A DNA stretch of 64,000 nucleotides from NCBI GenBank assembly GCA_000467715.1, contig AJFK01000052.1, positions 101,231 to 165,230 of the forward strand, written 5' to 3'. Each line of letters opens with the position of its first letter. Positions within the stretch are counted from its first letter, which is position 1. The position numbers were made by a program, and so were the translations under genes. This DNA is from Hysterium pulicare CBS 123377 (Eukaryota; Ascomycota; Dothideomycetes; Hysteriales; Hysteriaceae). This document shows, piece after piece, positions 37,552 through 62,226 of this stretch. The notes beneath the pieces were generated by a model. The model saw only the letters and a list, made by a program, of their open reading frames with translations, was not told where the DNA came from and searched no databases.

Positions 37552-38529
37552 AAAGTTCAATCGTCCGATGGTCATGTTACTTACGAGACCAAAGGCGCGT
37601 AATTCCTCGACTTCCCTCGCCCTTGGTCTTCAGACTAGATTTGCTATTAGGACCTGGACCTGATAGAAGAAGGAAATCTGGAGAGGGAGAGAGATTAAGA
37701 TAGAGGTAGTATTAGAAATATATATATACCCCTTGAAAAATTATTTTTTTCTCCTGCCAATCTAGTATGCTAATCGAAAACCAATTCTGACCATGATTCC
37801 CTCACGAAAAATATCCACTCGATTTGAGAAATTCACTCTACCAAGTCAACAATTTCTATAAACCTAATTCTAGCCTTATCCCTAACTACCTCTGTAGTAT
37901 CTCTTACTCATAATCCTACTCTAGCCGAATGCATTCCAGAAGAAAGAAAGGTTCCCTACCTAGGCTTGAATAATAGGTAATTCTACTTTCCAAAACCTCT
38001 CTCGACCGTTTATATATCCTAGTTTGAATCTTTTCATCTTTCCTTTATGTATTTAGAAAACAGAACTGTTGGTGCATGCCGACACTCATCCCAATCCGGT
38101 GCCAAGACTCTACAAAGGCCATTCGGGCTCTGTGAAAGCGATTGAAGCCAGTTGCCATCATCGTACCTATATAGAAAGTGATGAGATAAATGAAGCCTGC
38201 ACAGGTTCTATACATAAAAGGCTTCGTATTATATCATGACATAGGTTCAGCTACGATATATTTGAAGCGAGGGATGCAGCACTATCGTGACGGCCTTGTA
38301 CTTTTCTAATAAAATTAATCCAACCCTTTGCTAAATCTTTCAATATTGATCTTCCTCAATGAGCAACTATGATCAACTACTATCTTCAATAAAAGTATTT
38401 ATTTAGTCATCTGCGTGCGTGTGGTGCTTCACCAAAAAAAACCCCCACACTGCACCAAAACCCTCCAACCTCTTGCTAAGCCTAAGAGATCGTTTAATTT
38501 AATTGTAGAAACCAAACAGCAAAAAATAA
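37552..38529. other. AT-rich intergenic region
   Basis: No open frame of note. The sequence is AT-rich with poly-A/T runs (for example around 37730-37750) and has the look of decayed DNA before the tRNA gene. Confidence 0.5.
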
Positions 38530-38615
38530 GCTCCGCAAGGGCCTCGAACCCTTGACCTTAAGATTTCATAGTTTGCACTAAGAGTCTTACGCTCTTCCAA
38601 CTGAGCTAGCGGAGC
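38530..38615 (-). tRNA. tRNA-Lys(CTT) with a 14-nt intron
   Basis: On the minus strand the 86-nt segment folds as a tRNA: acceptor GCTCCGC pairs with GCGGAGC, D-arm GCTCAGTTGGAAGAGC, anticodon stem TAAGA/TCTTA, T-arm AAGGGTTCGAGGCCCTT. The anticodon is CTT (lysine, AAG codons). A 14-nt intron (GTGCAAACTATGAA) sits one base 3' of the anticodon, the standard position in nuclear tRNA genes. CCA is not encoded, as in eukaryotes. Confidence 0.95.
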
Positions 38616-41808: not shown

Positions 41809-44218
41809 TTATCCCTGACTCGTCGCTCTCCCTAACCCAGCAACCGCCTCGTCAACTCTCCTCCTCTTGCCAGAGTCTCGCTCGCGCTCTCCCCTCCCCC
41901 TAACAACCACAACCCCAGAAGCGGAGTTAGAAGCAGAAGCAGAAGCACCTCTCTGGTTCCCACCCCCACCTCCACCAATCCCACCAGCTTCCCTACCACC
42001 AGCACTCCTCCCACTCATCCTCTCCGCATCCCTCTCCCTTCCCCCAACGCGCTCAATAACCATCAACAATCTCCTTAGAGCTCCAACAACAGCCTCCCCA
42101 TGCTCAAACGCCAAGACAATAGAGCAACGTACGGCGAGCGCGACGATCCATTTCTTGGTTTGTTGTTCGGAGCGCCGGGCTGCTGCGCCGTTGATAAGAG
42201 CTATCCAGAGAAGCACACCTGCCATGTCGGACCAGCAGTCTGAGAGGTCGGAGTTGTTGAGGGACGTGTGGAGGTGGGTGAGGAGGGCAGATGAGCGGGA
42301 TTGGTGGGTTTGAGTTGATGTGGATGGTGTCGAGAAGAAAGGTTGGGGTGGGAAGAAGGGGCCTTGAAACGAGGAGGATGAGGAGGAGAAGGGATCTATG
42401 GGAGAAAGTGAGGGGAAGGCGGAATTAATGCCGTTGTAGGCGAGTTGATCTCTGGTTGGTAGAGTTGGGATTTGTGTTTGTTGAGCGGCGACTTTTAGGG
42501 CATGAGAGAGGGGGATACGTTTGATCATGGCGGTTGCTTGGATGATGGCGGTGATGCGACATGCTTCGTACGTCCAGACTACAAAGGTGGGGTTATTCAT
42601 AGCGATGCGAGATCCCGAAGGAAGATTGATAATTTTCTTGTACAGATTCTTGAGGTCTTGTTCCCTCTGGCGGCCGGCAATGGTGGTGGTAGAGCTGGTA
42701 TCCTCGAGGAAGAGATTTGTCATGTTTCGGATATCGTGGAGGAGATCGAGTGTCTGTTGGGCACAGCGGATTGACCGTCTGATGGTTGGGTAGTCGGATC
42801 TAGGACTAAAGAGAGGTGATTCGGGGATCGTTGCATTGTCATGATAGGGCGGTGCTGGCAATTGTCCGGAATAGTCAAGATAGATGCGCTTCGGTTGTTC
42901 TTCTCTAAAGATGGCTGATTCGAACGATACCCAGGTGAGGGTCGAAGCCATAGTGCCACCGACGCCTAACTGGTCCATTCCTCCTCGTTGTTTTACCATC
43001 GCTTCAGCTCCTGACTCATGATACTTGAGTACTGTCTCGTTTCCGGCGATGATTTCGCTGCAAATGAGTTGCATGAGAGCGATGATGTTGAAATCATCCA
43101 CACGGGTCCGGGGATTCGCAAGGCTCTGCCCAATGAGAGATATGATCTCTTGCCTTAGTGCCAAAGTTTGGACGCTCTCAAATGATCTGGTGTTAGTAGC
43201 ATCTAGGTGCGCCGAAGCTATGCACAACGTGCTAAGAAAGGCATGACGACTCTGAATAAGCGAAGGTATCCAATGGTGGCCCATTGCTCTCGTACCAAAA
43301 GCTTGTGAACCTACGTCATTATCAATACTGCACGTATGCCTTGCAAGAAGAGGAAAGAGGCTCACAGTAAAACTTGAGGTTCTCTACAGATACTCGGGGA
43401 TGGCTAGCTTGCGGCATGGTTTGAAAAGGATCCAGGGGAGTGCCAATAGATTGTAAAGCTCCAACTTGATAAAGATTATAGTCAAGTGGTACATCCAATC
43501 GCATAGGCTCGACCATTGGAGGCGGATAAATTAGGGTCTCCGGCAGGAAAAGCAGTTGATCGTTCGTGAATGCAATAGGTTGTTGGACGGCCAATTCGGA
43601 AGATGTTACCTGGTGTTCTTCGGGGTGGCCAGATGTTGATCTAACAGGTGACGAGTGTTTTCTCCGGCTTTCGCCTCTGTATATTTTCAAGGCATCTTCA
43701 CGGGACATGCCATCTTCATCTTGTTGATCGCTGACTTCTGTTATCCTGGATCCGGTGGAGCTTTCGCTGTGAAGCCTAGATCTAGGTCCCGACTTTCCGT
43801 CTCGCACTCCGCCCTCAAGTCGGCCAGTACTCGAAACCTGTCTTGGCCTATTTTCCAAATAACTGTTCATGGCCCTCTTGCGGACTTTTTGCATAACATC
43901 TCTCTTCTTAAATCCAGCCGGGCTATTGGCCGTAACAAAAAGAAAGCCCTCATTTTCATTGGGCGGCGATGTCGATTTTCGCGGATTCTGTTGCTGGGGT
44001 TGGTCGCGGACGGCTTCCGAGGCTGTAGGATTCGCAGCAAACGATTAGCGTCTTAGCTATGGACGGCTTTTGGGGAGAGCTGAAATCTGAGATGGCGCAC
44101 CATATGGATGCCATGACTGCGCTGAATCAGAACCGGTGGATGCAGGCGAGAGGCGCGGAACAGCGCGGCTATCCTCAGTAGGGTAGAGGCTCGCCATACT
44201 CATGGGCGCAGACATCAT
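41809..44218 (-). CDS. fungal transcription-factor-like protein (DUF3468 type)
   Basis: Modelled as three minus-strand exons: 44218-44101, 44022-43366 and 43310-41809, giving 758 aa. Intron 2 (55 bp) is secure because it joins LKFYC to SQAFGTRAMGHHWIPSL, a family landmark. Intron 1 uses a weak GTGCGC donor and is tentative. The block FLFVTANSPAGFKKRDVM followed by MQKVRKRAMNSYLE is typical of DUF3468 proteins, many of which carry an N-terminal Zn2Cys6 finger; here none is visible, so the protein may be a finger-less member. The middle region is helical (HAFLSTLCIASAHLDATNTR), and the C-terminus is low-complexity Gly/Ser/Ala and basic (GKRRRVDEAVAGLG). Target genes unknown. Confidence 0.8.
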
Positions 44219-51337: not shown

Positions 51338-52547
51338 ATGGTTTACGTCGCTGTTACACAGCAAGAGCCTGTGTGGTTCGACCTTGAGGGCGGCGTTACG
51401 AAGACATGCCGATTGATCGAAGAAGCATCCCAGAACGGCGCCTCATTGATCGCTTTCCCAGAATGTTGGCTGCCTGGGTACGCAGGTTGGGTCTGGTAAG
51501 TGTCAAATGACAAGATTAAATTTTTTGTTTCCCAGTTTCACCAAAGCGAAACCAAAACCAAGGACGCAGGTGATCCGTACGTACATGGTGATACTCATTT
51601 ATATGACCTTTGAAACAGGGCTCGACCGGTAGATCCAGAATTGGCGACTAGATACATCAGAAATTCATTGAGTTACAACTCGCCACACATGGAAACTATC
51701 TGCAACTCGGCCGCTGACCACAACATTGCCGTCATGCTCGGCTTCTCGGAAAACGAAAACGACTCTATCTATACAGCTCAGTGTCTGATCTCCAAGAAAG
51801 GAGAGATTGTGATGCGACGGCGCAAGATCAAGCTTGTGCATGTTGAAAGAACTCTCTTTGGCGAAGGCTCCGGCAGCTCGCTTATGAATGTCAAGGACGT
51901 TCCGGGCGTGGGCCGAGTAGGTGCGCTGAGCTGCTGGGAACATTTGCAGCCGTTGCTGAAATATCACACGATGAGTTTGCGAGAGCAGATTCACATTGCG
52001 TCATATCCGCCACTCGATACGCACCCAGGAGGCTCTTTCGAAGGGTTGTGGAGTATGTCAAGTGATGGTAAGCATTTAAACCCCAACTCTCCCTTGACCT
52101 CACTCCATATATGTATCGACTGGTTGATATGGGACCTCGCTCTGACAGCCACTAATCGAATCATCAGCCTGTCAAGCCCTATCTCAGACCTATGCCATCG
52201 AGTCCGGAACCTTTGTTCTCCACTGCTGTGCTGTCTTCACCGAAAGCGGCATCGAATCCATGAAGACACACCACGGCGGTATATTTAGTCAACCGTGCGG
52301 CGGCTACTCGGCAGTCTTCGCGCCGGACGGACGCCGGTTGACCAAGGCACTCTCCCCTACCGAAGAGGGTATTATATATACTGAACTCGACATGGATTTT
52401 ATTGTTGCCTGCCGACACTTTGTTGACACTGTTGGGCATTTCTCCAGACCGGATTTGCTTTGGTTGGGCGTCGACTCCAGAGAGAAGAAACATGTCAGGC
52501 ATATTAAGGGGGAGGGGGAGCAGGACATTGAGGATTTGGAGAAATAA
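51338..52547 (+). CDS. nitrilase (EC 3.5.5.1 type)
   Basis: Three exons (51338-51495, 51619-52067, 52168-52547) give 328 aa. The nitrilase catalytic triad is complete: Glu42 in [14 protein letters not shown], Lys124 in [18 protein letters not shown], Cys158 in [15 protein letters not shown]. The wording around the Cys and the downstream [10 protein letters not shown] block fit nitrilases; cyanide hydratases usually have a different helix after the Cys. Family members hydrolyse nitriles to carboxylic acid and ammonia and form spiral oligomers. It has no signal peptide, so it is cytosolic. Substrate cannot be read from sequence. Neighbours offer no clear pathway link. Confidence 0.93.
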
Positions 52548-53077: not shown

Positions 53078-54706
53078 TCAACACCCATTAACTGCATGAG
53101 CGCCGTTAGCAATGCCGTTGGTGAGGCCGTTCACCTTCTTCTCCTTGAACCCGTTCGCCAATCCATTCGTCAAGAGTTTCTTCCCCGATACCTCGACCTT
53201 CACCTCGACCTTCTCTTCCTCCTCCACACTTCCCACCCCATTCAACACGCTCTTAATCCAGTCCAATATATACTTCCTTGCATACGGCTCCCCCATATGC
53301 TTACTATCCTCAAAGAACCTCGCCTCCTTAACACTTCCATACCTCAACGGCAGAAGACAATCCTCGATCGGGAACAACTCATCCAACATACCGTTAATAA
53401 GCAACAGCCTGCAAGATGGCATATCCAAAATCCCATTCTCGAGCAGCGAGAACCGCGCCCTCGAATCAATCTTCATCTTCTCCACATCCTCGTACCCGAA
53501 TTTGAGCGCGAGGACTTGCGTCAGGTCGAACGGATACTCCATATGAGACGCAATCTCCAACCACTCCGCATCAAACATACTATGACACCCACCCCCCTGC
53601 GCCACCACGCCCGCGAATCGGTTCTTGTGCGTATGCGCTATCCGCATGGCGTAATACCCACCACAACTCACACCCCAAGCCACCAACTTCCCCTTCTGAA
53701 TCCACGCCTGCTGATCAACCCAATCAAGCACAGAACTCCACAGCCGTTCCGCCGCTTCCGGATCATTGGCATCCGCAGGACAATCCCCCGTCCCGGGAAT
53801 CTCAACAGCGATGGATGCCCACCCCGCAGCAATATGATGGCTACTCGGCATCGTATGTTCAGTCCTATACCCATCTAACCCATAAATCTGCAACACGGTC
53901 GGAAAGCTATCGCCCGGTTTCGCCCCGACGGGCAAGCGCACGCTAACTGGGATACTCGTATACGATTCTCGGGTCCCAGGTTTCGCATGGTAGTGCGGGA
54001 TCAGGTGTTCGGTGAGGGGCGCATCGAGGTAAGCGGCGCCCTTGTAGAAGGCGACTTTTTGCTTTTGCCAGGCGTACTTTTGGAGCGGGGATATCGGGCA
54101 GGGTTGGCGGGCTGTGCGGTAGACGCAGGCGGCGCGGAGATACAACTCTGAGGCTTTTTTGAAGTCACCGGCAGACTCGGCTTCGGCGGCGCGGGATTCG
54201 AGCTTTTCGGCTACCGGGAAGAAGGGTGCGGCGTAGACTTCGAAGTCATAGGGGGGATAGATGTTGTTCTTATTTTTGGGATTAGCCTGCTTATTTCGTT
54301 TCTCTTTCTCTGTGGGTTTGGAAAGTGGGATAGAAGGAGAAGAGACAGGTGGACGAGTATTTGATGGGGGGAAATGAAAGTAAAAAAGCACCTTTTCAAA
54401 CTCCTCAAACACCTCCTCGAAATCTTCTGCTTTTCCCTCCATAAAAGGATAGATACCGAGAGTTGCCTACCGAATAGTAAGAATGGGTTAGCTGCTAATG
54501 TTGTTCTATGAATTAAGACTTTCTTCTCGCTTTCTCTTTTGCCCTTTGGATTGAGACATAGTTTCGCTCTTATGGATGGGGGCTGTGTCTTTGAGTTGGA
54601 GGTAATTTACCCTCTTCTTCCATTTCAGATTCCACAGCGCGGAAATGGATTCGTGGTGAGCACCTTTTTTGCCCTCGCCTGCGCCGATGAAATAGGGTGG
54701 CGGCAT
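53078..54706 (-). CDS. Ayg1-like alpha/beta hydrolase (DHN-melanin chain-shortening type)
   Basis: Exon 1 54706-54611 (MPPPYFIGAGEGKK...ALWNLKWKKR) joins exon 2 from 54466 (ATLGIYPFMEGKAEDFEEVF). A further in-frame 105-nt intron (54391-54287, GTGCTT to AGCAG) is likely because the intervening residues are low-complexity and absent from Ayg1; splicing gives 459 aa, retention 494. The fold is an Ayg1/DUF1100 hydrolase: nucleophile Ser in GVSCGGYYAMRIAHTH (about residue 264), Asp in NGMLDELFPIEDC, His in DSKHMGEPY. Ayg1 (Aspergillus), WdYG1 and Botrytis YGH1 shorten the polyketide precursor of DHN melanin. The C-terminal ~45 residues are an added tail with repeated LTNGxANG motifs. No polyketide synthase or reductase lies in the window, so a melanin role is inferred from family only. 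Confidence 0.88.
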
Positions 54707-55683
54707 TTGTGCGCTGTTTTTCTTAACAGTATTCTCGTGATAGAAATGAAATATAAAATTGAAAACAGAGTATGGGATTTAAGATTGGAGTATATATAAG
54801 GAGAAGAAATGAGAGAGATGCGGCGATGGGGATGTATGATTTCGACGCTTTTAATCTACTTATACCACCCGCACACACAAACACTCTCTTCGGTTCTCGA
54901 AAATCATCAAGATCGGTCTACAATCATCCTATAGGAACCCATGGATGATATTCAGCCATTGCGTCAGCGTAGCAATAACTCAGGTCCCAACCAACCCCCA
55001 TCTTACAGCAGGGGTTTCGCTTTCCGAAGACTACCCAAATCCGGAAACGCGCATTTCGTCCCTTTAATGTCGACATGAAACCGGGGAGTTAGAAATAGCG
55101 TTTCCCGAGTATTTGGATCATTGCGTGCGAGACGCGTTGCGTTATGTAGGTTGGTAGTCTACACCGCGTGGGAAGGGATGTTCCAGAAGGGCGCTAGAAG
55201 CCCGGAAAATGTGTGGCTTTCTAGGTAGATAGGTGTTCTAGCGGCTTCATGCAGCTGGGTTTGTTTCTCGGGTTTACGAGAGATAATGGCTGGGATGGCA
55301 GTGATGCCCGTTAACTTCTTCGGAGTGGATTGATGATGGGAGGGAGGTGGGAATTACGGGCGGGGATCAAGTGTGGCGCTTTCCTTGCCGAAGCACCGCC
55401 ACATTTTAGTTTGACTACACTCTTCATTAAGATCTTAGCAATCACTTTCGATTTGGCTTTCTTTGCTGGCAATTGAATCAAGTACTGGTATTTACTTGTA
55501 TCTAGTTGATGTAAGAATCCCATCTTATGTCACTGATCCTTCAAACCTAGCGCCTTCCGCTGCACCGTTCCGCTTAGCATGCTGTTTCGAAGAAAGTCAC
55601 CGAGAAAATGTAGTATCCCACTACTCATACAACTCCTCATTTTTTTGCGCCGGATTTCTGCCACGCGAATTCCTATTCACATA
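54707..55683. other. intergenic region
   Basis: Nearly 1 kb holding the promoter of the Ayg1-like gene and the 3' end of the oxalyl-CoA decarboxylase gene. No gene or repeat recognised. Confidence 0.5.
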
Positions 55684-57462
55684 TTAGCAACTGCTCACCA
55701 CTTCCACTCTTTCTTCCCAAGGGAGACTTACCAATTTCTTACTAGATCCACTCTCAATGATCACATTGACCACCACAGGAACCTTGGAATTAAATCCCTC
55801 CTCCGTAGCCCTCTCGAGTTGTTTCGGCGTACGCACAAGATATCCCTTCCCACCACACATCTCCGCCATCTTTTCATAACCAACTTCCCATCCCAGACTC
55901 GTGCTTCTCAATCCACCCTTCTCTCCACTACGCGTCTTGTCCTGCAGGTTTAGCCAGTGGTCTGCATCTTCGCTGTCGCCGTGGTAGATGCCTCCGTTGT
56001 TAATCACGAAGATTAGAATATCCATGTTGTAGCGTGCCATGGTCTCGACTTCGGGCATCGAGAATCCAAATGCGGAATCACCCTCCAAACATATGATTTT
56101 CTTATTAGCAGAGGCACCGGTATGGCCTTCGGGCTCTGGGTAGTTGTATGCGGCGTGGGCAGCGATTGCATAGCCGAGTCCAACACCCATGGTCGCGTGA
56201 GTACCGGCATCCATGCGGAGGCGAGGATGTTCGACTGCGAAGGCGCTGCGTGAGATATCCATGGTGTTGGCGCCTTCAGAGACATATACGACGTTGCCAT
56301 CTTCGGGCGGAGAGAGTTTGTTCAGGGTGGTTTTGATGATATCAAAGACTTGATGGTATCCCATGGGTGATTTGACGATTTTGGCTGTTTTTGCAGCATT
56401 TGCTTCATTCTTCACCTTGCTTACTTGTAGAGCTTGAATGTAGGGTGATGCGACATTGTATCTCCAGCCTTGCAGAGCGGTGATGAGCTGGGGGACTACG
56501 ACATTGATGTCGCCGACCATGCCGAGATCAGCGTCACCGTTGTTTTTGCCGATCTCCTCGGCTGAGATATCCACTTGGATGAGCTTGACGCCTTTATTCC
56601 ATTTGGGTTCGTCTCCGAAATGTAGGATCCAGTTTAATCGAGCTCCAAGAATCAAGACGACATCTGCACCTTTCAGTGCAGTGGATCGAGCGGAGGAGGT
56701 GTTGGATGGGTGTGAATCTGGGAGCACGCCTTTACCCATTGGTGTTGGTAGGAAGGGAATACCTGTTTCTTCGACAAGTTGACGGATTGACTTCTCTGCT
56801 TGAGCATATGATGCACCCTTGCCGACGACAACTAGAGGAGCTTCAGCATTTCGAAGAAGCGCCGCAACTTGAGCGAGCCTCTCAGGATCAACACCAGCTC
56901 GAGGAGTTGCAGGTACTACTCTATTCTCTTTTACCTCTTCCTCGGAACTGCCTTGAATGACGTCGGCTGGAAGATCGATGAAGCCAGTTCCCGGGCGGCC
57001 ATACCATGCGGATCGGTATGCCTGGGTTATTGATTGTGGGATGGAGTTAAGGTTTGGCCGAATGGCGATCTTGGTGTGAGGCGCAAGAAGAGAAATGGCG
57101 TCAAGCTCTTGGAAAGCTCCCTTGGTGACTAGATGCGTTTCGCATGATCCGGCAAGGAGAAGCATGGGAAATGCATTGGCAGATGAGTTTCCTACTCCAG
57201 CCATAGCATGGAGAACTCCAGGTCCTCCAACAACCAAGCAAACACCAGGTCTTCTGGTCAGGTAGCCATATGCTGTTGCAGCATAGCTGCAAGCTTGCTC
57301 GTTTCTGAATGCAATGAATCGTATGCCTAGAGCGATAGCTTCTTCGGCAATCTGCACAACCGGTATGCCGACAAGGCCGAAAATAACTTTTATGCCGAGT
57401 TGCTGAAGGGCTCTAGCGATGAGAGCCGCGCCGGTTGGCCGCGGAACGGTCTCTGCTGTCAT
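55684..57462 (-). CDS. ThDP-dependent oxalyl-CoA decarboxylase / 2-hydroxyacyl-CoA lyase
   Basis: Intronless gene of 592 aa. The ThDP fold is complete: N-terminal PYR domain with catalytic Glu55 in AFRNEQACSYAATAYG, middle domain (VVVGKGASYAQAEKSIRQL), and C-terminal PP domain with the cofactor motif EGDSAFGFSMPEVETMARYN ending in NNGGIYHGD. The GDSAFGFS form is shared by oxalyl-CoA decarboxylases and 2-hydroxyacyl-CoA lyases. The GAFQE segment resembles the lyases, but the divergent partner gene is an oxalyl-CoA synthetase, so oxalyl-CoA to formyl-CoA plus CO2 is the likelier reaction. The C-terminus VEVVSSC is not a recognisable peroxisomal PTS1 signal, unlike many homologues. Confidence 0.9.
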   Translation of the reverse strand: MTAETVPRPTGAALIARALQQLGIKVIFGLVGIPVVQIAEEAIALGIRFIAFRNEQACSYAATAYGYLTRRPGVCLVVGGPGVLHAMAGVGNSSANAFPMLLLAGSCETHLVTKGAFQELDAISLLAPHTKIAIRPNLNSIPQSITQAYRSAWYGRPGTGFIDLPADVIQGSSEEEVKENRVVPATPRAGVDPERLAQVAALLRNAEAPLVVVGKGASYAQAEKSIRQLVEETGIPFLPTPMGKGVLPDSHPSNTSSARSTALKGADVVLILGARLNWILHFGDEPKWNKGVKLIQVDISAEEIGKNNGDADLGMVGDINVVVPQLITALQGWRYNVASPYIQALQVSKVKNEANAAKTAKIVKSPMGYHQVFDIIKTTLNKLSPPEDGNVVYVSEGANTMDISRSAFAVEHPRLRMDAGTHATMGVGLGYAIAAHAAYNYPEPEGHTGASANKKIICLEGDSAFGFSMPEVETMARYNMDILIFVINNGGIYHGDSEDADHWLNLQDKTRSGEKGGLRSTSLGWEVGYEKMAEMCGGKGYLVRTPKQLERATEEGFNSKVPVVVNVIIESGSSKKLVSLPWEERVEVVSSC

Positions 57463-57908
57463 TTGGAAAAGAAGTAAAAGATCAAAAAAAGCTAAGGTGG
57501 AGAGAGGCTGCGGTAGACAGCTTTTCGAAAAACTTAATGCTAGATGATGAAAGATAAATCGCAGAACGGTGAGAGTTTGTTGTTTCGCGCCGATGAATAT
57601 ACCAATTATTTTCGTGTTCCTGTAGGACCCGATCTAATACCACCTGGGCTCGGAGACCGTAGTCGCATTCCTGGTGTGGAGTTGAGGCTGACGCACTGCC
57701 ACGAGTCGCATCCCAGGTCGGTATCCGAGACTAAATCTATTCTTGATATATGCGATCCGAACATACTAGTGTATGTTCAAGGGTACCTTTTTAAAATATT
57801 AAAAGTGTTTAAAATATGTAAATGGGTTTGACAAACCTGCTGCTTCTGAATTTCCCTTATCTGACTTGATTGATCTTTCTCACTTCCCGGCTCTTATCAC
57901 ATATCATC
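57463..57908. promoter_or_regulatory. bidirectional promoter of the oxalate pair
   Basis: The 446 bp between the two start codons must serve both genes. At 57651-57659 it carries CGGAGACCG, an inverted CGG-N3-CCG triplet of the kind bound by Zn2Cys6 dimers; the flanks read GCTCGGAGACCGTAG. A closely related sequence lies upstream of the third gene of the module. An open frame at 57544-57831 is not supported as coding. Confidence 0.5.
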
Positions 57909-59688
57909 ATGCCAACGCTCCTTAGTTGTTTGTCTGCCATGACCGACAAACCAGCTGTCATTATTCCAAATGAGACCAGCCCTATTATTCTATCGCATCA
58001 TTTGTTGCTTGAACAAGTTCTCTCGTTCCAAAAGAAGCTTGCGGCAGTTGGCATCTCACCGAAGGAGGCAGTTGGGATCGCTCTTCCAAACAGCCTTGAA
58101 TTCGTCATCTCTTTCCTCGCAACTGGGCTTCAGCGTGCTATATGCGCACCTCTTAACCCTGCCTACAAGCAAGATGAGTTTGAGTTTTACTTCGAGGATC
58201 TAAAAGCCCCGTTAGTATTGGTGCCAAAGGGAGCTATTGCTGGTAGTGGAGAAGCAATCAAGGCCGCAAGAAAATGCAATGTTGCCATTGCAGAAGTTTA
58301 CTGGAATGGATCCGAGGTTGCTCTCGAGGTGGGAGAGGACGACGGCCTTAGAGACTCGAAGCAGGCCAAAGTCGAGACACCGCAGCCAGAGGACGTTGCT
58401 TTGATCCTGCACACCAGCGGTACAACTGGCAGACCAAAAGCTGTATGATTCGAGCCTCCCTCCTCATTCTGAAAGACGCTGATAACATTCAGGTGCCGTT
58501 GAGTCACAGCAATCTGTGCCAGACCATGTCAAACATTCAAGCGACCTACAACTTGTCGCCAGCCGACCGAACTCTTCTGGTCATGCCTCTTTTTCATGTT
58601 CACGGTCTTCTCGCTGGGTTCCTCTCTCCCCTGATGAGCGGAGGGTCGGTCATCGTTCCATCCCGATTCTCGGCATCGGACTTCTGGCGCGAGTTTGTTA
58701 CACACAAGGCAAATTGGTACACTGCAGTCCCCACGATCCATCAAATTCTCTTGAAGAACGAACTCCCATCTCCAATGCCTAAGATCCGATTCATTCGATC
58801 ATGCTCTTCGCCTCTGTCTCCTACTGTGCACAGCCAGCTTGAGGCAAAGCTCGGAGCGCCCGTTGTGGAAGCATATGCGATGACGGAAGCGGCACATCAA
58901 ATGACATCCAACCCACTTCCACCTGCAAGCCGGAAGCCAGGATCCGTAGGTAAACCACAAGGAGTTGAGCTCGAGATCATGGATGACGAAGGCAACGTAC
59001 TTCCGCAAGGAAAGATTGGAGAAGTTTGTATCCGAGGCTCAAATGTCACTGCCGGATATATCGGTGAGGGCATTGCTTCCCCATTCTTCAAATCGGGACA
59101 TTTCCGCACTGGTGACCAAGGGTATCTTGATCCAGAAGGATATCTATTTTTGACCGGACGTATTAAAGAGCTCATCAACAAAGGTGGGGAGAAGATCAGT
59201 CCTATTGAGATTGACAACATTTTGGCTCAGCACCCAAGCATTCTTGAGGCTGTCAGTTTCGCCATTGACGATGAACTTTACGGACAGAATGTCGCGGTTG
59301 CCATTGCGCTCCGAGAGGGAAAGACACTTGATACCGAGGAGCTGTTGGCCTGGTTTGGTGAGCGAGCTGCCAAATTCAAGATCCCCAAGAAGGTAAGAAA
59401 TTCGAAAAGGGCCGATCGTGTTCTTCAAACTGATGTCTACAGGTGTTCTTTACCGACCATATGCCAAAGACTGCAACCGGAAAGGTTCAGCGCCGCCACG
59501 TTGCATCTGCCATGACTGCAACAGAGAAGAAGAGTTTCTTTGAGGGGGCTGCAGTTCCCAGCACATCCCAACCCGTTCAGGTATCAGCTATCGGTCGCTT
59601 CTTGAACTTGGGACGCTCCTTGATTTCCTACATTAGCTCTGTCTGCCAAGGCGCACTTTCTTTTGTATCCGGAGCGAAGAAAGCATAG
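57909..59688 (+). CDS. oxalyl-CoA synthetase (Pcs60/AAE3-like acyl-adenylating enzyme)
   Basis: Three exons (57909-58442, 58493-59392, 59443-59688) give 559 aa. Acyl-adenylate motifs are all present: LHTSGTTGRPKAV crossing intron 1, EAYAMTEAAHQMTSNPLPP, the TGDQGYLDPEGY and GRIKELINKGGEKISPIEID blocks, and the catalytic Lys in KTATGKVQRR. The motif AYAMTEA-H-M-SNPLPP is characteristic of plant AAE3 and yeast Pcs60, which activate oxalate with CoA and ATP. The C-terminal ~60 residues (IGRFLNLGRSLISYISSVC) are extra and hydrophobic. The end GAKKA is not a PTS1, unlike the SKL of yeast Pcs60. Product would feed the divergently transcribed decarboxylase. Confidence 0.92.
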
Positions 59689-59923
59689 GCGTTAAGCTGA
59701 ATACTCATGCAAGAAGGTGGTCAATTTTCTGGCGTTCGCTGTAAATGGTTAGCAGAATCGCGGTCTTTCCTTACTTTTGCGTTAATCGAACGCGTTCAAA
59801 TATGAGATATTAGACTGGATCAAGATATTTCTTTATGAGCTGCGCGTGTCTTCAAGTGTATGATATAGATTGAACGGAGATATTGTTGGGAAAACTGCAG
59901 GGTTCATGATGCTTTCATGTGCT

Positions 59924-59998
59924 TATCGGCCGAAGTAAATCATGCGACGGTACACTGTAATCTGGAGCTGGAGGTGTTCTGAGCCACTTCGGCCGATA
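59924..59998. repeat. 13-bp inverted repeat with TCGGCCGA core
   Basis: TATCGGCCGAAGT at 59924-59936 is matched by its exact reverse complement ACTTCGGCCGATA at 59986-59998, 49 nt apart. It lies between the synthetase 3' end and the next gene, so it could be a transcript hairpin or a pair of regulator sites. Confidence 0.7.
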
Positions 59999-60769
59999 GG
60001 TAATTGACAAGCTCAAAGCATTGAAGTATTGATGGAAGTTAATACTTTTGTCCTGGAGACAGGTTCGCGTTTCGACAAACAAAATCGGAGGTTGGTGGTC
60101 TTGGCACGCTAGCCAGCTTCATCAGACCCCAATCTCCACTTCAACCTCAATCTTTCATCCAAATTTTTCATCCAAATCTTTTGACTTATCATTTCCACAA
60201 CCAGCAGGATTCCGTTTCGTGCCCCGTTAAATCAATCTACGTAGAAAATGATAGATGAAGTTCCTTTGAGGTTGTCCCGTTTTTCTTGGCACCGCTCGGT
60301 GATTACAATCTCTTCTTCGCGATGATCATTTCCATTGCTCAATGATTTCTTCTGTCCTATCTATTCTTTCCCCTAACAATGTCTTGGTCAAGTTCTCAAT
60401 AATACTTCTATACTCAGGTCCTTTGAGATGTCCAAACGAAGCGCATATTCGGTATCCGAATCCTAACTACCCGGAAGGCAACAACACGCAACCCGAATCT
60501 GTCACGAACTTAAGAAACGACCTCAAGATGTGGAGAACCACGTGAAATGCAGCCAGTGGGAAGTATTACTCTTACTCTGGAATGGAGAATCTTGGATTGC
60601 GTAGTGGTACCTGCGTTGCTAAGAAAAGGCCATCGGGTTGACGGCTGACGACTTGCTTCGATGAACGTTCCTCTGCCCCAACTCTCGCGAACACTCTGAA
60701 ACCGTCGATACGTCCTAACGCACGGTCTATACAGTAATGACGATGAGCTTTCTGGCTCTTCTTACCACT

Positions 60770-60778
60770 CGGGGACCG
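60770..60778. promoter_or_regulatory. CGG-N3-CCG motif upstream of the OAH-like gene
   Basis: CGGGGACCG lies 147 bp before the start codon of the third oxalate-module gene. With flank it reads CTCGGGGACCG, one base different from CTCGGAGACCG in the divergent promoter. The inverted CGG/CCG triplets are typical Zn2Cys6 targets. Function is inferred. Confidence 0.45.
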
Positions 60779-60924
60779 ATATTGCATATACTTAATACTG
60801 GGCTGTACAAGTGGTGATATTTCCAACACTTCTCAGAGCATATTTCTTCTTCCTCACGTGCTATTTCTTGTCTGAGATCTCTTGAGCATTTCCTTTGGTA
60901 TTTTTCTTGATCGCCTTCTCAGCC

Positions 60925-62226
60925 ATGGTTATGATGCAATCAGCTATGGACATCCCTCAGCCAACAATGGATTCTCTCACCTCTAACGGATGGAGACCAC
61001 TTCCCCTAGGTCTCCCAAATGCAGAGGCAGGATCTTCTAGCGACCTTAACACGATCAGCCAACTCTCCTTCAAAGTCGACGTACCCCCCGTAACTCCAAC
61101 TGCCGCTACCACTACCCAAGAAGCCGCCTCCTCCACTGAGGGCTCCGTCTGCGGAGATGATGCATCCACAGCTGAAACCGCTTCAACTGCACCAAGCGAA
61201 CACGGCGACGTTGCTGAACCAGAACCCATCGTTGAGACGAAGCCTACGTCCGATATCCCTCAAGTAGTCGTTGAGGATGGATCAAAGCCCACATCTACCG
61301 TCGACATCCGCGCCCCCGAAGTCTTTGACCCTTATTCATCAGCTGCAACCCGTCTTCGATACATGGTCAAGAACTCGGATCACATCATCAAATGCCCCGG
61401 TGTCTACGATGGTCTTTCAGCCCGTATCGCCATCGACTGTGGCTTCGAAGGCATGTACATGACCGGCGCCGGTACGACCGCCTCCCGTCTCGGCCAAGCT
61501 GATCTCGGTATCGCCCACCTCCACGACATGCGCACAAACGCTGAGATGATCGCCAATCTACGACCCGATGGCCCACCATTGATTGCTGATATGGACACCG
61601 GATACGGCGGTCCTCTCGTCGTCGCCAAATCCCTTCAAGAGTACCACCGTGCAGGTGTCGCCGCCTTCCACATCGAAGACCAGATCATGAACAAGCGATG
61701 CGGACATTTGGCTGGAAAAGAAGTCGTCGACACCGAGACATACATCCAACGTATCAAAGCCTGCGTCGTTGCGCGCAAGCAGCTCCGATCAGACATCATC
61801 ATCATCGCTCGCACCGATGCTCTCCAACAAAAGGGCTTCGATGACTGCATTGAACGCTTGAAGCGTGCTCGGGATGAGGGCGCCGATATGGGTATCCTCG
61901 AGGGTGTCAAGACAAAGGAGCAAGCTGCCTTGGCTGCTAAGCTTCTTGCTCCATGGCCACTTTGCTACAATAGCGTTGAGAACGGCCACTCGCCCCTCAT
62001 CACGGCTCAGGAATGCCAGAATATGGGCTACAGGGTGATCATCTATAGCTTCGCTAGTATCTCTCCAGCGTACGTTGCTATCAAAAGTACCTTCGAGTGG
62101 TTGAGGGAGACCGGTACGACTGGTAGCAGCGTTACTCCGAAGACCATCTTCAATGTTTGCGGTTTGGCTGAGAGCATTGTTATTGATGAAGCGAGTGGTG
62201 GAAATGCTTTTGCCAAGGGCGTATAA
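60925..62226 (+). CDS. PEP mutase/isocitrate lyase superfamily protein, oxaloacetate acetylhydrolase-like
   Basis: Intronless, 433 aa from ATG 60925. Residues 1-145 are a low-complexity Ala/Thr/Ser/Pro/Glu leader. The TIM-barrel follows: CPGVYDGLSARIAIDCGFEG, GTTASRLGQADLGIAH, the metal-binding DMDTGYGGP (Asp222, Asp224), the gating loop NKRCGHLAG with Cys259, IIIARTDALQQKGFDDC and IIYSFASISPAY (residues 373-383). These match oxaloacetate acetylhydrolase, which cleaves oxaloacetate to oxalate and acetate in Aspergillus and Botrytis. Published work, as I recall it, uses a Ser in the active-site region to separate true OAH from related lyases; a Ser-rich stretch is present here but I cannot confirm the equivalent position. 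Known OAHs are about 340 aa, so the leader is an addition. Lies 1.2 kb downstream of the oxalyl-CoA synthetase. Confidence 0.82.
   Translation: MVMMQSAMDIPQPTMDSLTSNGWRPLPLGLPNAEAGSSSDLNTISQLSFKVDVPPVTPTAATTTQEAASSTEGSVCGDDASTAETASTAPSEHGDVAEPEPIVETKPTSDIPQVVVEDGSKPTSTVDIRAPEVFDPYSSAATRLRYMVKNSDHIIKCPGVYDGLSARIAIDCGFEGMYMTGAGTTASRLGQADLGIAHLHDMRTNAEMIANLRPDGPPLIADMDTGYGGPLVVAKSLQEYHRAGVAAFHIEDQIMNKRCGHLAGKEVVDTETYIQRIKACVVARKQLRSDIIIIARTDALQQKGFDDCIERLKRARDEGADMGILEGVKTKEQAALAAKLLAPWPLCYNSVENGHSPLITAQECQNMGYRVIIYSFASISPAYVAIKSTFEWLRETGTTGSSVTPKTIFNVCGLAESIVIDEASGGNAFAKGV

Follow-up and report, generated by a model that had tools for sequence, protein, structure and literature searches.

A candidate oxalate module in Hysterium pulicare: an oxaloacetate acetylhydrolase-type gene beside a divergent gene pair of the oxalyl-CoA route

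We find that three adjacent genes in a 64,000-nucleotide stretch of the Hysterium pulicare CBS 123377 genome (contig AJFK01000052.1, positions 101231-165230, our G000:C42; hereafter the window) belong, by family assignment only, to one predicted pathway of oxalate metabolism. These are a thiamine diphosphate (ThDP) enzyme of the oxalyl-CoA decarboxylase (OXC)/HACL1 group (gene A, minus strand), an AAE3/Pcs60-type oxalyl-CoA synthetase (gene B, plus strand), and an oxaloacetate acetylhydrolase (OAH; gene C, plus strand). An original prediction, made from the window alone, had described a divergent pair followed by an OAH-like gene. This observation is confirmed, with all three genes in that order, and its interpretation is partly supported. 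Across the 37.2-Mb assembly (596 contigs), the locus holds the only A–B pair found, and this pair adjoins the only OAH-type gene found.

We lean toward reading the locus as a small oxalate module in which C makes oxalate, A and B drain the excess in the cytosol, and all three genes are controlled jointly. With each reaction assigned from family knowledge, C would convert oxaloacetate to oxalate and acetate, B would join oxalate to CoA at the cost of ATP, and A would decarboxylate the resulting oxalyl-CoA to formyl-CoA and CO2. Other enzymes would then take formyl-CoA to formate and CO2. A and B would be second copies of a peroxisomal-type pair encoded elsewhere (A2 and B2), without its import signal and most likely cytosolic. 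Outside the peroxisome they would drain oxalate where it is made, OAH presumably acting in the cytosol. One Zn2Cys6 regulator would act on all three genes through CGG-N3-CCG sites upstream of them. In fungi, oxalate plays an important part in acidification, metal handling, wood decay, and plant disease, and a locus where its predicted synthesis adjoins its predicted CoA-dependent breakdown makes intracellular oxalate control directly testable.

Enzyme families of the three genes

The start codons of A and B lie 446 bp apart, and the divergent intergenic region (57463–57908) is common to both genes. Between the end of B and the start of C are 1236 bp. Close homologues of A and B elsewhere in the genome were found on two other contigs only.

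Gene C is an OAH at the family level, as judged from sequence. It is a single exon of 433 amino acids (60925–62226, plus strand), and its best solved match by phmmer is the OAH 3lye/3m0j/3m0k (E = 2.3e-124, 418.7 bits). The PF13714 domain scores 113 bits (cut-off 31.5), and the motifs ADMDTGYGG, HIEDQ, and ARTDA are present together with a KRCGH loop. Identity alone is insufficient here, because the references for OAH and dimethylmalate lyase (DML) are 60% identical to each other, while C is 58% identical to OAH (over a 217-residue core) and 52% to DML. The assignment is therefore based on a tree and a marker residue. In a nine-sequence maximum-likelihood tree (C, one OAH, one DML, two relatives from the same genome, and four bacterial proteins), C and OAH are separated from the rest with support of 99.8/98. 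A place outside the OAH clade, which the original prediction had named as a refutation, is thus not what the tree gives for C. The marker serine, Ser350 of C (NSVENGHSP, codon at 61972–61974), aligns with the serine of OAH and occurs in two of the nine sequences, C and OAH, with Met and Gln at this position in the two relatives from the same genome. DML was considered as an identity for C and rejected on the lower score against the DML 3fa3 (351.6 bits), the tree, and the serine. This serine is described as a marker of oxalate producers (PMC3256194, PMC8224569) and as associated with OAH activity (PMC8224569).

The PEP-mutase/ICL family has six matches in the genome, and C alone among them is of the OAH type. 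The match on contig C451 is DML-like (335 bits against DML versus 291), and that on C425 is undecided (207 versus 199 bits). By eye, the C574 match resembles isocitrate lyase and the C480 match ketopantoate hydroxymethyltransferase; the C95 match is another PEP-mutase-type protein. The DML-like gene (in L041, C451:50000-59900) reads NMVEHGATP and is closest to 3fa3. A plasmid search with C returned 394 records, with identities of at most 41% among the eight listed, four of which served as outgroups; the viral contigs scanned with C held no relatives.

The OAH of 3lye/3m0j is presumably that of Cryphonectria parasitica. C resembles it in the core identity, the marker serine, and the KRCGH loop, and differs from it in an N-terminal extension of 134 residues (60925–61326) that is acidic, rich in Ser, Thr, and Pro, of low complexity, and outside the match to solved OAH. 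Codon usage in this extension lies above random synonymous choice; the signal is weak, and another frame scores alike.

At the family level, sequence comparison likewise places gene B with the oxalyl-CoA synthetases. It encodes 559 amino acids (57909–59688, plus strand) in three exons (57909-58442, 58493-59392, and 59443-59688) separated by two predicted 50-bp GT..CAG introns. Both introns are at places used in the paralogue B2, which has two more. The best solved matches of B bear the name oxalate-CoA ligase (8aff, 5ie0) or, as originally proposed for B, oxalyl-CoA synthetase (6qjz), at E values of 9e-146 to 3.7e-141 and 475-490 bits, with 366 bits against the shorter 8atd. The next family, malonyl-CoA synthetase, reaches 201 bits. 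No NCBIfam cut-off was reached by B in the 25 of 107 families shown; this library serves bacterial and archaeal annotation. Six of the seven B motifs checked are identical in B2, and AYAMTEAxHQMTSN is found also in the yeast-type ligase 8aff.

Gene A belongs to the OXC/HACL1 group, and its final exon depends on a predicted intron. The gene runs on the minus strand from an ATG at 57462 to a stop at 55637 and encodes 588 amino acids once spliced (exons 57462-55732 and 55672-55637). The last intron (55673–55731, 59 bp) opens with GTAAGT at 55731, contains a branch-like GCTAAT, and closes with TAG. Its removal restores an ending of ...SSKKLEFAWQKSGAKK, with exon 2 yielding ...KKLEFAWQKSGAKK, and the model of the paralogue A2 has its last intron at an identical place and in the same phase (KP|SFGW). 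An F-x-W end stands at the position of A's FAW in the three solved relatives and the four bacterial sequences shown. The original prediction had set the left limit of the locus at 55684, which is the stop of the unspliced frame. We rejected that model, with its ending ...EERVEVVSSC, since splicing recovers both the FAW motif and the intron position shared with A2.

The nearest solved relatives of A are oxalyl-CoA decarboxylases and 2-hydroxyacyl-CoA lyases (HACLs), in line with the decarboxylase/lyase label first given to it. Unspliced A scores 410-455 bits against seven solved HACL/HACS-type sequences, some of them labelled oxalyl-CoA decarboxylase. Against the bacterial OXC entries 7ayg, 2q27 (E. 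coli), 7b2e, and 2c31 it scores 354-365 bits, and against 8vzk, which has an OXC label, 362. We take 2c31 to be the Oxalobacter OXC. Relatives were fetched with A, and the best 80 of 173 all have prokaryotic titles, none of them fungal, with a best segment of 46% identity. A tree with 22 prokaryotic relatives out of these 80 makes sisters of A and A2 (1.000) and joins them, on long branches, with E. coli OXC (0.994). The identity of A is 36.7% with E. coli OXC and 42-47% with the 22 prokaryotic sequences. The viral contigs scanned with A and A2 held no relatives. Some HACL-like genes lie on contigs titled as Klebsiella pneumoniae or as a Bordetella parapertussis metagenome-assembled genome (L048, L089, L116, L118), titles that look doubtful.

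Several features of A weigh against an oxalyl-CoA substrate. Its scores are higher on solved HACL-type chains than on bacterial OXC chains. Unspliced A also falls below the NCBIfam cut-offs for OXC (NF006721, 496 of 557 bits; TIGR03254, 465 of 739), and it reaches 214 of 600 bits for the HACL family NF058623. At the C-terminus, A has the FAW of an HACL and no ESG..LN stretch as in OXC. The Tyr-Glu pair of bacterial OXC is Phe-Gln in A, giving an HACL-like FQE. In favor of OXC, the later Tyr, one of three active-site residues of bacterial OXC, is kept; it lies in a GIY motif present in three bacterial OXCs, and its position is Gly or Ser in the four bacterial HACL-like sequences shown.

The HACL-like features could mean that A is an HACL (or works both ways) and that B activates another short acid. 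A and B would then serve carboxylic-acid breakdown, with C linked to them through acetate or formate, or not linked at all. We consider this unlikely: the proteins that B matches best bear the name oxalate-CoA ligase or oxalyl-CoA synthetase, and the CGG-N3-CCG sites described below connect A and B with C. Furthermore, the Arabidopsis OXC, with reported activity on oxalyl-CoA, is said to depart from its bacterial counterparts at two of the three residues as well (PMC8004701). A thus fits a eukaryotic OXC, though by sequence it may also be an HACL.

A second gene pair and peroxisomal signals

The predicted pathway seems to be present twice, as a scattered peroxisomal set and as a non-peroxisomal set arranged head to head beside OAH. 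A has one other close homologue, A2 (C511:25138-27043, 62.6-62.9% identical), and B likewise has one, B2 (C343:20825-22583, 61% identical). The models of A2 and B2 both end in AKL, a form of peroxisomal targeting signal type 1 (PTS1), with QAKL at the end of B2. The alignment of B2 with the oxalate-CoA ligase 8aff, presumably yeast Pcs60, extends to the SKL end of the latter.

The gene models of A and B end differently, in SGAKK and SGAKKA, respectively. A C-terminal tail of 50 codons in B (59536–59685), ending in GAKKA, replaces the short PTS1 end of Pcs60 and B2. Lacking the PTS1 of fungal Pcs60, B does not count as a true peroxisomal Pcs60, which leaves its assignment to the enzyme family unaffected. 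The likeness of the two C-termini (55637-55654 and 59668-59688) may be due to chance. Alternative splicing of the last exon produced no PTS1 in 39 models of A, 22 models of B (consensus-like donors, introns of 40-150 bases), or a scan with loose donors made for B only. The first 60 residues of A and B contain no match to the PTS2 pattern.

A set without these signals is probably cytosolic, as its predicted termini suggest. This suits the original proposal that the locus buffers cytosolic oxalate, although that proposal had overlooked the PTS1-bearing A2 and B2. Reportedly, to go by the title of a 1988 paper by Kubicek, oxalate synthesis in A. niger follows a cytoplasmic pathway. PTS1 is described on MoPcs60 and on Pcs60, and MoPcs60-GFP is peroxisomal mainly under oleate (PMC8826238).

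Two points count against a relocated pathway. In A2, the last exon and with it the AKL depend on GTTCGT, a weak donor picked to restore the FxW motif. Import of A and B by piggyback may also be compatible with their lack of PTS1: they could still enter peroxisomes as hetero-oligomers with A2 and B2, in which case the locus would supply a dosage copy of a pathway that has not moved. ThDP enzymes of A's family are oligomers, and such import is described for yeast Mdh2 (PMC7758625). On the other hand, mixed oligomers are uncertain at ~62% identity, the 50-residue tail of B stands in place of the PTS1 end, and the signal is missing from both A and B. We judge piggyback import to be improbable.

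Shared CGG-N3-CCG sites

The two intergenic regions at the locus share CGG-N3-CCG inverted repeats. Such repeats are of the type bound by Zn2Cys6 regulators. Each region has two sites: TCGGTATCCGA (57718–57728) and a second core (57651–57659) between A and B, and an identical copy of TCGGTATCCGA (60449–60459) and a second site of the same class, TCGGGGACCGA (60769–60779), upstream of C. The four sites fall within 1682 bp, where the genome average predicts 0.25, and the window total is 15. For the longer form TCGG-N3-CCGA, three sites occur in the two regions versus 0.02 by genome average, out of four in the window. Shuffling of the window gives 0.97 of the longer sites where four are observed, and 2 of 100 shuffles reach four.

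Random draws from the window rarely reproduce this sharing. Each draw took two stretches of matching lengths from positions 1-53000, coding DNA included; for the 11-mer comparison, draws less than 1300 bases apart were skipped and not replaced, so that somewhat fewer than 20,000 pairs were tested. No draw in 20,000 shared a CGG-N3-CCG 11-mer, and 50 shared an 11-mer with a 4-3-4 inverted repeat. A further 20,000 draws yielded none with three TCGG-N3-CCGA sites. Among 51 loci of the same genome that were scanned, TCGG-N3-CCGA occurs only in those overlapping the three genes.

Other counts speak against a special role for the sites. Some 11-mer of any kind is shared in 4333 of the 20,000 draws. 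The site statistics also overstate the case, because the motif was tested only after it had been noticed and because the draws include coding DNA. Genome-wide, the motif is not enriched: TCGGTATCCGA has 12 copies versus 11 of a reversed control, TCGG-N3-CCGA has 472 versus 524, and CGG-N3-CCG has 5475 in 37.2 Mb versus 7966. It is the clustering at the three genes that is the point. CGG-N3-CCG sites occur at some other loci too. In the 1.2 kb upstream, A2 has one and B2 none. Among loci for oxalate decarboxylase, C441 has two and C289 one, all inside the matched coding stretch, and none was found in the loci scanned on C27 and C107. Two more, spaced by 39 bp, are at the C451 locus, ~1.1 kb from the match in the upstream direction.

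On balance, A, B, and C are probably controlled jointly by one Zn2Cys6 regulator, as far as DNA motifs can indicate. The functional link between the genes had originally been drawn from position and function, and the sites in both regions are the first sequence evidence for joint control. This suggests that oxalate synthesis and destruction are controlled together. A scan for PacC, CCAAT, AreA, CreA, FacB, and FarA/B motifs revealed no convincing site common to both regions, in which short GATA, CCAAT, and CreA-type cores do occur. A gene for a Fungal_trans_2 regulator (41812-44044, match at 41812-43383) lies ~12 kb to the left of the three genes and is possible as a distant candidate for their regulator.

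It is also conceivable that A and B are a true divergent pair and that C lies next to them by accident under separate control, for instance by pH through PacC. The 1236-bp gap between B and C would suit such a neighborhood, as would the unrelated annotated genes that flank the locus (RIC1, NUP120, and a RAD51-type piece among them). Two GCCARG cores, which we take to be of PacC type, stand upstream of C and none between A and B. We doubt this explanation, given that the sole OAH-type gene found adjoins the sole A–B pair found and that both regions hold a rare common 11-mer and, together, four sites of one class.

The joint-control reading has a more ambitious form, which is tentative and which we hold to be possible rather than probable. 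A once-peroxisomal pathway would have been duplicated, moved to the cytosol, and wired together with OAH to a single Zn2Cys6 regulator, as an oxalate valve that is independent of oxalate decarboxylase and fixes net oxalate output through production and breakdown at once. B would perhaps be tethered by its tail.

Related oxalate pathways and genomic surroundings

The predicted CoA route runs beside the usual oxalate decarboxylases, as an addition to them. Four bicupin oxalate-decarboxylase loci are present, of which C441, C27, and C107 exceed the family cut-off and C289 falls below it. The original prediction, which contrasted the module with the oxalate-decarboxylase route, had not taken these loci into account and is qualified by them. 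The four loci also leave the need for a CoA route unproven, which tells against a draining role for A and B. A formate-dehydrogenase-like gene on C37 is split into pieces that score 240, 105, and 54 bits, each by itself below the 329-bit cut-off, and family-III CoA-transferases exceed their cut-off on five contigs. With these, the formate produced could be usable.

The plant CoA-dependent oxalate route is a close parallel in enzymes. That route (PMC8004701, PMC9090294) starts with AAE3 and OXC and continues with formyl-CoA hydrolase and formate dehydrogenase. Its first two enzymes are of the same families as B and A, both are reported to be cytosolic in Arabidopsis, and expression of the AAE3/OXC pathway is reported to be induced by oxalate. 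In contrast to the head-to-head pair beside OAH described here, neither OAH nor a gene cluster is mentioned in the excerpts of those papers.

Oxalyl-CoA chemistry in fungi is itself not new. Yeast oxalyl-CoA synthetase activity is cited in PMC8826238 and PMC11076667, and a CoA route of this kind has been proposed in commensal fungi (PMC11076667). In a review excerpt, fungal oxalate breakdown is ascribed to decarboxylase and oxidase, and the CoA route to bacteria (PMC11045627). Yeast Pcs60 (YBR222C, an oxalyl-CoA synthetase), Pxp1 (YEL020C), and MoPcs60 (PMC8826238) are of the same families as the window genes. The window copies differ in their lack of PTS1, in the tail of B, and in forming an extra set that is clustered, whereas the yeast Pcs60 and Pxp1 genes are, by their systematic names, on different chromosomes. 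We assume that Pxp1 (YEL020C) is the enzyme called ScOXC in PMC9090294.

The bacterial frc-oxc operon (yfdX-frc-oxc-yfdV-yfdE in E. coli) is similar in that it groups OXC with an oxalyl-CoA-forming enzyme. The bacterial enzyme is a CoA-transferase (frc), however, while that of the window is predicted to be an ATP-dependent ligase. Furthermore, none of the nine features shown for the E. coli frc-oxc region is an oxalate-synthesis gene.

What is new here are the PTS1-bearing paralogues and the promoter element common to the three genes. A fungal cluster of this kind is not named in the titles and abstract openings of the literature searched. It may nonetheless be published, given that synteny at OAH loci is reported, at second hand, for five fungi, namely Sclerotinia sclerotiorum, B. 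cinerea, and three Aspergillus species (PMC3256194). An OAH gene beside a head-to-head AAE3–OXC pair without PTS1 could serve as a marker for such loci in other fungi.

The rest of the window is unrelated to oxalate as far as it was scanned. Family scans covered 30 of its 46 open frames of at least 130 codons, A and C among these, and none of the remaining matches is of oxalate metabolism. The right end of the window is the end of the 165,230-base contig, with ~1.8 kb of flank visible beyond C. The window also holds a HET-domain gene, which together with the Fungal_trans_2 gene and the very short introns indicates a filamentous ascomycete. An alpha/beta hydrolase gene of the FrsA/prolyl-oligopeptidase type (53081-54466) adjoins A on the same strand, a piece of a carbon-nitrogen hydrolase lies at 51614-52285, and a tRNA-Leu (taa) gene occupies 38529-38615 on the minus strand.

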